This document shows positions 33,241 to 35,800 of a stretch of 64,000 nt of DNA, piece after piece. A program made the translations under genes and the position numbers. Origin of the DNA: an uncultured Hyphomicrobiales bacterium (GTDB taxonomy: Bacteria > Pseudomonadota > Alphaproteobacteria > Rhizobiales > Xanthobacteraceae); the NCBI GenBank assembly GCA_903839845.1, contig CAIMEA010000181.1, positions 1 through 64,000 on the forward strand, written 5' to 3'. How positions within the stretch are numbered: position 1 is the stretch's first letter; each line of letters begins with the position of its first letter. A model generated the notes under the pieces. The model had not been told where the DNA came from, ran no database searches, and was given only the letters and a program-made list of their open reading frames with translations.

Positions 33241-33687
33241 CTATTGCGCGCGCTTGCGGAAGACGACGAAATGCGACAGCGAGAAATTGATCACGAAGCT
33301 GACCAGGATCGATATCAGCTTCGCCGCCACCACCGGCAACATATAGGACAGCGCGAACAGAGTGGCGGTCGAGCAGATCATGCCGGCGATACCGGAGGCG
33401 GCGAAGGTCGCATAATCGCGCCAGCGCAAGATACGGCCGGACTCCGGCCCGAACGTGATGAACGTGTTCATGCCGTAGGAAAACGACACCGCCACCAGCC
33501 AGGCCAGCACGTTGGACGGCACCAAGGGCCAGTGCAGAAATTCGACGACCGTCCAGAAAACGCTGAAATCGATGGCCGTGTTGACCACGCCGACGAGGGC
33601 AAAACTGATCGCCTTGAGCGCGATGGCGCGCTCGTGCCAGGCCACGCTCAACCGGTTGAATACGCTTTTAATGGACGCCGCGATCAT
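33241..33687 (-). CDS. GtrA-family membrane protein
   Basis: The 148-residue protein has four membrane helices of the GtrA type (FALVGVVNTAIDFSVFW, SYGMNTFITF and INFSLSHFVVFRKR). GtrA proteins are thought to flip polyprenyl-phosphate sugars across the inner membrane, working with a GtrB-type transferase, and one is encoded divergently just beyond at 33860. The C-terminal FRKR is typical of the family. Confidence 0.9.
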   Translation of the reverse strand: MIAASIKSVFNRLSVAWHERAIALKAISFALVGVVNTAIDFSVFWTVVEFLHWPLVPSNVLAWLVAVSFSYGMNTFITFGPESGRILRWRDYATFAASGIAGMICSTATLFALSYMLPVVAAKLISILVSFVINFSLSHFVVFRKRAQ

Positions 33688-33859
33688 CCGGCTTCCATAG
33701 CACTAAGTTGGCGCGCGATCCTACCCGAAATCCGGCGGCTTTTTTCCGAATCGGGCGCTGGGCCGCAGGATGTTCCGGCCGCGCTCCGGCCCCTTTCCGG
33801 GACGCGACAGGGACACCACGTTGCGGTATAGATCGCGGCCCAACCGAGGAATCCTCACC

Positions 33860-34924
33860 TTGACGAAAATGCCGGCAAAAACCGCCAAATCGCCCGTCCG
33901 GGTCGCCAAACCGCGGCCGGACGACGGACTGTCGATTGTCGTGCCGGTGTTCAACGAGGCCAAGGGCCTGCCCGGGCTGCACGAGCGCATCGCCGAGGTG
34001 GCGCGGTTTCTTCACAGCAAGTACGGCCTCGCCGTCGAGGTCGTCTATGTCGACGACGGCTCAAGCGACGCCACCAGCCAGACCGCCAATGCGTTGCCGG
34101 CCATGCCGCTCGACGTCCAGGTGGTGACGCTGTCGCGCAATTTCGGCAAGGAAGCGGCGCTGCTCGCCGGTCTCGATCATGCCCGGCGCGGCGCCATTTT
34201 ATTCATGGACGGCGACGGCCAGCATCCGCCGAGCCTGATCGAGACATTGGTGTCGCGCTGGCTCGATGACGGCTACGACGTGGTCTATACCGCCAAGGCG
34301 CATCGCGAGAACGAACCCTGGCTGCGCCGGACCATGGTGCACTGGTTCTATTGGCTGCTGAATTGGCGGGCGCGGCTGAAAATTCCGGAAGACGCCGGCG
34401 ACTTCCGTTTGCTGTCGCCGCGCGCGGCCAACGCGCTGCGGCAGATGCCGGAGCGCAACCGTTTCTTCAAGGGCCTGTCGAGCTGGATCGGCTTTCGACA
34501 GGTGCGCGTCGATTACGAACCGGCCGAGCGCGAGCACGGCATAAGCACCTGGAACATCTGGTCGCTGGTCGGCCTGTCGGTCGAAGCGCTGACCTCGTTC
34601 TCAGTGGCGCCGCTGCGCGTCGCCAGCCTGCTCGGCGTCATCATGGCGGCGTCGGCGCTGTTGTTCGGCGCCTGGATCGTCATGGAGACGGTTTTGTTCG
34701 GCGAGGATGTGCCGGGCTATCCGTCGCTCGTCGTCGGGCTGATGGTGCTCGGCGGCGTGCAGTTGATGATGATCGGCGTGCTCGGCGAGTATATCGGCAA
34801 GCTCCTGTCCGAGATCAAAGGCCGGCCGGTCTATTTCGTCGCCGAACACACGGTAAAGGCCGCCGACGAGCCGGCGAAAGACAGCGGCAAGACGCGGCCG
34901 TCGCCGGCGCGCGCCGCGGAGTAG
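33860..34924 (+). CDS. GtrB/DPM1-type glycosyltransferase family 2
   Basis: This 354-residue enzyme would put a sugar from a nucleotide donor onto polyprenyl phosphate. The GT2 domain (about residues 25-245) has VVPVFNEAKGLP, YVDDGSSDAT and LFMDGDGQHPP (the DxD-like metal site), and two C-terminal membrane helices (about 255-280 and 290-315) are followed by EIKGRPVYFV, the usual end of GtrB/ArnC-type proteins. TTG 33860 is chosen because GAGGA lies 9 bp before it; ATG 33869 is the alternative. The product would be flipped by GtrA and used by a GT39-type enzyme. Confidence 0.9.
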   Translation: MTKMPAKTAKSPVRVAKPRPDDGLSIVVPVFNEAKGLPGLHERIAEVARFLHSKYGLAVEVVYVDDGSSDATSQTANALPAMPLDVQVVTLSRNFGKEAALLAGLDHARRGAILFMDGDGQHPPSLIETLVSRWLDDGYDVVYTAKAHRENEPWLRRTMVHWFYWLLNWRARLKIPEDAGDFRLLSPRAANALRQMPERNRFFKGLSSWIGFRQVRVDYEPAEREHGISTWNIWSLVGLSVEALTSFSVAPLRVASLLGVIMAASALLFGAWIVMETVLFGEDVPGYPSLVVGLMVLGGVQLMMIGVLGEYIGKLLSEIKGRPVYFVAEHTVKAADEPAKDSGKTRPSPARAAE

Positions 34925-34930
34925 CCCGCC

Positions 34931-35800
34931 ATTTCGCATCATCCCATCCGCCGCATCTGGCTTTGCGCCGACGATTACGGCATGGCGCCGGGCGTCAATA
35001 ACGCAATCCGGCAATTGATCCTGCGCAAGCGCATCAACGCGACGTCGGTGATGATGCCGGCGGCGTATCTCGGCGACGGCGAAGCGCGCGCGCTCGCCGA
35101 TCTCAATGTCGGCGAACAGCGCGCCGCCATCGGCCTGCATGTCACGTTGACCGCGCCGTTCAAGCCGATGAGCGACGGCTTCGTGCCGGCGCGTGACGGC
35201 CGATTTTTGCCGCACCCGGAGCTGATGCGCCTGAGCGTGACCCGGCGCCTTAATCCGGATCTGCTGACCATCGAGATCGCGACGCAGGTGCGCGCCTTTC
35301 TCGAAACATTCGGCCGCCTGCCCGACTTTGTCGACGGCCACCAGCATGTCCAGTTGCTGCCGCAGGTGCGCGACGCCTTCCTCAAGGTCGTCGCCGAGAC
35401 CGCGCCCAATGCCTGGGTGCGGCAATGTGGCAGGCCGCGCGGGGCGCGGCCGCTGCACGATTCAAAAGGGCTGGTGCTCGACATTCTCGCCATGGGCTTT
35501 CGCGGCAAGGCGGAGCGGCTTGGCCTTGCCACCAACCCGGCCTTTGCCGGCGCTTACAGCTTCAGCGCCAAGGCCAAATTCGCCAAGATTTTTCCGCGCT
35601 TTCTCAAAGGCCTGCCGGATGGCGGCCTGATCATGTGTCATCCCGGCTTCGTCGATGCGGCGCTACAAGGCCTCGATTCGCTGACGACCTTGCGTGAGCA
35701 CGAATTCGCCTACTTTAATTCGGAGGCTTACCCGCATGTGCTGGCCACGCACGGCGTCGCATTGGCAGAGCCCACTGGCGAAGCCGGCGGCGGTGCCTAG
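34931..35800 (+). CDS. YdjC/ChbG-family carbohydrate deacetylase with an apparent AUU start
   Basis: These metal enzymes remove acetyl groups from sugars. The 289-residue protein contains LCADDYGMAPGVN near residue 12, whose two Asp are metal or catalytic residues in the family, and a VDGHQHVQLLP His motif (about residue 137). The first ATG in frame (34982) comes after the Asp pair and would delete it, and no ATG, GTG or TTG precedes it before the stop of the upstream gene. ATT 34931 lies nine bases after a GGAG (34918-34921), so AUU is the best start. The gene is in the same frame as the GtrB-type gene, separated by a TAG, so stop-codon read-through is a less likely alternative. Confidence 0.8.
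   Translation: MSHHPIRRIWLCADDYGMAPGVNNAIRQLILRKRINATSVMMPAAYLGDGEARALADLNVGEQRAAIGLHVTLTAPFKPMSDGFVPARDGRFLPHPELMRLSVTRRLNPDLLTIEIATQVRAFLETFGRLPDFVDGHQHVQLLPQVRDAFLKVVAETAPNAWVRQCGRPRGARPLHDSKGLVLDILAMGFRGKAERLGLATNPAFAGAYSFSAKAKFAKIFPRFLKGLPDGGLIMCHPGFVDAALQGLDSLTTLREHEFAYFNSEAYPHVLATHGVALAEPTGEAGGGA

Follow-up and report, generated by a model that had tools for sequence, protein, structure and literature searches.

In the DNA analysed here, a window of 64,000 nucleotides that is part of a 240-contig draft assembly of an uncultured Hyphomicrobiales bacterium, a deacetylase gene of the YdjC/ChbG/HpnK type very probably starts at an AUU codon (position 34931). This codon appears to have arisen once, where relatives use TTG, and its use would be coupled to the translation of the glycosyltransferase gene that precedes it. 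According to the proposed mechanism, the initiator tRNA would be set on the AUU either by a ribosome that ends the glycosyltransferase at its TAG or by a 30S subunit held by the GGAG motif, and initiation there would yield the full enzyme of 289 residues together with its Asp pair. In evolutionary terms, the AUU would have arisen a single time, in the ancestor of three species and at the place of the relatives' TTG; since then, purifying selection has continued to act on the gene.

Well-supported AUU genes other than infC are few. To these, the deacetylase adds a probable native case that the usual list of AUU genes does not include; no new mechanism is involved. Annotation that assumes ATG, GTG or TTG as starts misses or truncates AUU genes; in this window, the ORF finder drops the catalytic Asp pair.

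Start region of the deacetylase gene

The features of the locus are collected in Table 1. Direct reading of the deacetylase frame (34925-35800) finds no ATG, GTG or TTG from the TAG to ATG 34982, and the catalytic Asp pair lies upstream of this ATG, which is the first canonical start past the TAG. Both observations had been made in the initial annotation and are borne out here. In consequence, no in-frame ATG, GTG or TTG is able to start the full domain. A mechanical ORF finder placed the start of the gene at ATG 34982 (272 aa), past the ADDYG motif.

Only two in-frame codons, CCC and GCC, separate the TAG from the ATT (direct reading), so the latter sits 6 nt past the glycosyltransferase stop. 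The spacer from GGAG to the ATT measures exactly 9 nt, as had also been read initially; this is a usable spacing for a ribosome-binding motif and equals that of infC in the same genome. After the ATT, the frame continues with TCG CAT CAT CCC ATC CGC CGC ATC TGG CTT TGC GCC GAC GAT TAC GGC ATG.

A special RNA structure at the start was considered and rejected, since folding at the start is weaker than in shuffled versions of the same region (a third folded sequence, downstream of the gene, was left out). Around the locus, terminator-like matches were no more numerous than expected by chance, and a search for a promoter-like site found none.

Table 1. Features of the deacetylase locus (positions refer to the window)
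Feature	Position	Strand	Evidence
GtrA/DPMS-type membrane protein, divergent neighbour	33241..33687	-	PF04138, E 2.1e-22
Family 2 glycosyltransferase frame	33770..34924	+	PF00535, E 5.2e-28; ORF-finder start ATG 33770
GGAG, Shine-Dalgarno-like, within the last codons of the glycosyltransferase	34918..34921	+	Direct reading; GGAG/GAG of genus members
Glycosyltransferase stop TAG (TAA in the sisters)	34922..34924	+	Direct reading; comparison with relatives
Probable AUU start codon	34931..34933	+	Direct reading; sole plausible start from the TAG to the Asp pair; two sister species; TTG/GTG/ATG of relatives nearby
YdjC/ChbG/HpnK-type deacetylase gene read from the ATT, 289 aa plus stop	34931..35800	+	PF04794; PDB relatives; dN/dS within the trio
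TGC GCC GAC GAT TAC GGC (CADDYG), catalytic Asp pair GAC 34970 and GAT 34973	34964..34981	+	Reading; alignment; PMC9402603

The deacetylase protein

Read from 34925, the frame matches the PF04794 (YdjC) profile at residues 10-273 (profile positions 1-264 of 266; E 5.9e-48), and its score of 164.5 bits, against a curated cut-off of 29.7, identifies a full-length member of the family. Since profile position 1 is already matched at residue 10, the domain begins before ATG 34982. The ADD of the deacetylase aligns with the ADD of two solved relatives (PDB 7vi8 and 2i5i), as do its His regions GLHVTLT and DGHQHV; the catalytic Asp and the metal-binding His residues are thus recognized by sequence only. 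In ChbG of K. pneumoniae, D10 is a possible general acid/base and D11 is a metal (zinc) ligand (PMC9402603).

The gene in the window has the PF04794 domain and the Asp pair in common with the ChbG, HpnK and YdjC deacetylases, but it differs from ChbG and HpnK proper in scoring below the cut-offs of both NCBIfam equivalog models (72.4 vs 227 for ChbG; 53.7 vs 232.6 for HpnK), and no substrate is assigned to it.

Start codons of the relatives

Comparing the same start in relatives had been proposed as a check, and for this purpose homologues were drawn from the genus and beyond. Two sister species carry the same ATT with the same spacing: (i) G031 (L009, the same gene as L038), at 92% protein identity, reads GGAG-TAA-ACC-GCC-ATT-TCG; and (ii) G024 (L010, the same gene as L039), at about 90% protein identity, reads GGAG-TAA-GCC-GCC-ATT-TCG. 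Neither of them has an ATG, GTG or TTG ahead of the Asp pair. The three genes, which come from independent assemblies, share the ATT, the GCC before it, the TCG after it and the 9-nt spacing. The ATT sample consists of one clade with three species, all of them apparently draft metagenome assemblies. For a fourth close species (G002), the contig begins at residue 69 of the protein, and the upstream part was looked for and not found.

All other readable homologues, from the genus and from Bradyrhizobium-type relatives, begin with a canonical ATG, GTG or TTG in roughly the same position, and none of the readable loci outside the trio lacks a canonical start. The distance from these canonical starts to the Asp pair is 8 to 22 codons (12 in most genus members), compared with 13 codons for the ATT. 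The ATT genes of the three species group together as a single clade in the protein tree (SH-aLRT 99). The closest homologue by identity, L011 (84%), has a TTG start and joins at an unresolved fork just below the trio. The AUU is therefore kept in three related species of one clade, and deeper relatives have TTG, GTG or ATG. Given that the ATT is found in one clade and the closest relative has TTG, the simplest history is a single gain of the ATT, which would then have persisted across two speciations or more.

The genus thus provides a natural series at the same operon junction, with TTG, GTG and ATG relatives on one side and the AUU trio on the other, so that closely related controls are available for judging what an AUU start costs and what it is used for.

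infC of the same organisms as a yardstick

The infC gene was located in this genome (L121/L131, G000:C155:2683) and in ten genus relatives. Each of these 11 genomes (L130-L140) has an ATT start for infC, in the context GAGGAG...GCC-ATT-CGT. As in the deacetylase, GGAG stands 9 nt before the ATT: infC reads GGAG-N6-GCC-ATT in this genome and has the same type of spacing in the others. A mechanical start caller would misplace the infC start. In a narrow search, the motif GGAG-N6-GCC-ATT occurred six times in this assembly, and only two of these sites, those of infC and the deacetylase, open a long frame that has no upstream canonical start. In several relatives GCC also precedes the TTG start, and for this reason the infC-like GCC triplet of the deacetylase may be an inherited coincidence rather than an adaptation.

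An altered IF3 in the trio was considered as the cause of the AUU start and rejected. The IF3 proteins are ordinary (those of G024 and G031 are 100% and 97% identical, respectively, to that of this genome) and, hence, give no sign of relaxed start selection.

It is very unlikely that initiation takes place at some other near-cognate codon, for instance AUC 34955 before the Trp, or that it follows termination without any fixed codon. AUC 34955 is a formal alternative that is kept in the trio, and inactivation of the ribosome recycling factor is known to permit random initiation downstream of stop codons (PMC2268962). Nevertheless, AUC 34955 lies 33 nt past GGAG and encodes an Ile that is conserved in relatives which start upstream of it, and another candidate, AUC 34946, is AAC in one sister. 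The ATT, instead, combines a good spacing with a place near the start position of the relatives and a layout that matches infC. As far as can be deduced from these sequences, initiation would actually take place at the AUU.

Selection on the gene

Within the ATT trio, the gene is under purifying selection, with dN/dS over the gene body ranging from 0.10 to 0.19, and the stretch ahead of the first ATG is included in this. The eleven codons of RRIWLCADDYG, which lie upstream of ATG 34982, vary in 0 first-position, 0 second-position and 2 third-position columns in the trio, and in 2, 1 and 10, respectively, across the genus. Such variation, at third positions only within the trio, means that the stretch is read as protein in the deacetylase frame. 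The four codons that lie between TCG and RRIWL do vary in the trio (H/Q, H/P, I/N), a freedom that would be typical of a short tail at the N-terminus. Under neutrality, the chance of finding the ATT unchanged in the trio is about 0.29 (neutral tree length 0.41), and its conservation alone is consequently weak evidence; the argument for the AUU rests on the absent canonical start and the selection together. The probable AUU start proposed in the initial annotation is thus supported by the relatives, by the selection on the gene and by the same infC layout in the genus.

These results also bear on the idea that the start has simply been lost, leaving either a decaying pseudogene or a short product from ATG 34982 that lacks the Asp pair. 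ATG 34982 is indeed the first canonical start and is conserved in the trio. But the loss would predate three species whose coding sequences are intact and under the above-mentioned constraint, the codons ahead of this ATG evolve as coding sequence, and the same Met is internal in many relatives with normal starts. Little probability can be attached to such a loss.

Known systems with rare start codons

infC encodes IF3, the factor that discriminates against AUU, and this results in feedback control. In E. coli and in this genus, the AUU of infC follows a Shine-Dalgarno-like motif, as does that of the deacetylase. The two genes differ in that (i) the deacetylase cannot control itself through IF3; and (ii) its AUU is present in one clade only, whereas that of infC is kept in all the genus genomes checked.

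The pcnB gene of E. coli reportedly has a chromosomal AUU start and is said to be limited by it, as tested experimentally by Binns and Masters in 2002 (cited in PMC13009471 and PMC5601948). It resembles the deacetylase in being an AUU gene that does not encode an initiation factor, and differs from it in function, in lineage and in its experimental testing, the deacetylase start being deduced from comparison. The initial annotation described native AUU starts as very rare and named infC as the known case, but infC is not the single one, as pcnB and the cvfC1 gene of S. aureus belong here too.

In S. aureus, cvfC1 (AUU) and ccpN (AUA) give roughly 10% of the AUG output in one medium (PMC13009471). 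Their non-canonical starts are conserved in a group of species, like the ATT of the trio, but they have extended Shine-Dalgarno motifs instead of a short GGAG, and cvfC1 is the first gene of its own operon (PMC13009471), while the deacetylase follows the glycosyltransferase. In Streptomyces, the GTC start of sigR makes this gene subject to IF3, and a model has been put forward in which repression by IF3 lowers its output (PMC5472188). Both sigR and the deacetylase have a rare start codon within a two-gene unit; in the case of sigR, the codon is GTC rather than ATT and belongs to the upstream gene, in a sigma/anti-sigma pair whose ratio is important. A search of the literature for further AUU cases, in alphaproteobacteria and in ribosome profiling, found nothing direct, apart from ainS of V. 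fischeri, for which ATT starts have been proposed (PMC5601948).

On account of the precedents from E. coli, S. aureus and Streptomyces, the output from the AUU is expected to be lower than from an AUG, that is, less deacetylase would be made per glycosyltransferase. In E. coli, an excess of IF3 lowers re-initiation, and the factor likewise holds down initiation at non-canonical codons (PMC2268962); expression of the deacetylase is possibly IF3-sensitive as well. A regulatory meaning of its AUU, by analogy with infC and sigR, is speculative. In particular, it is unlikely that the AUU ties the deacetylase of this clade to the IF3 level or the state of the ribosome, in the manner of the sigR GTC, in which case initiation fidelity would set the level of sugar deacetylation in relation to the glycosyltransferase coupled to it.

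Operon and neighbouring genes

The glycosyltransferase and the deacetylase presumably form one operon. Across the genus, wherever both can be placed, the deacetylase start lies between -4 and +24 nt from the glycosyltransferase stop. As it is close to this stop throughout the genus, translational coupling would be the natural mechanism, and we infer that translation of the deacetylase is coupled to the upstream gene. GGAG or GAG stands directly before the glycosyltransferase stop in the genus members whose stop was placed (the window, L008-L037 and L118-L120). This C-terminal GGAG/GAG is kept while the gene that follows varies in its start codon and its frame. The trio has 6 nt from stop to ATT, with TAG as the stop of one species and TAA as that of the other two.

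The initial annotation noted that the deacetylase is in the same frame as the glycosyltransferase, with only a TAG between them. The observation is correct, but the feature is incidental, as the frame relation across the genus is 0, 1 or 2. With both frames the same and one stop apart, readthrough might be imagined to give a glycosyltransferase-deacetylase fusion in which the deacetylase has no start of its own. This was rejected and is very improbable: the stop is kept even though TAG and TAA interchange, the frames of the two genes differ in other genus members, and in every other relative that could be read the deacetylase has a start of its own. An error of sequencing or assembly at the start codon, conceivable in a draft assembly, was likewise rejected and has a negligible probability, since the same ATT occurs in the two sister species, with separate assemblies and different flanking bases.

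The true start of the glycosyltransferase is possibly TTG 33860 or ATG 33869 instead of ATG 33770. On the other strand, the gene for the GtrA-type membrane protein diverges from the PgfS/ArnC-like glycosyltransferase and the deacetylase, and the presence of the three genes suggests a lipid-linked sugar modification unit. Finally, in two related species (L016 and L026) the gap between the two genes is 24 nt or more, and the sequence ATTGA(A/G)ATTCGC follows the glycosyltransferase stop, with a TTG start further in.
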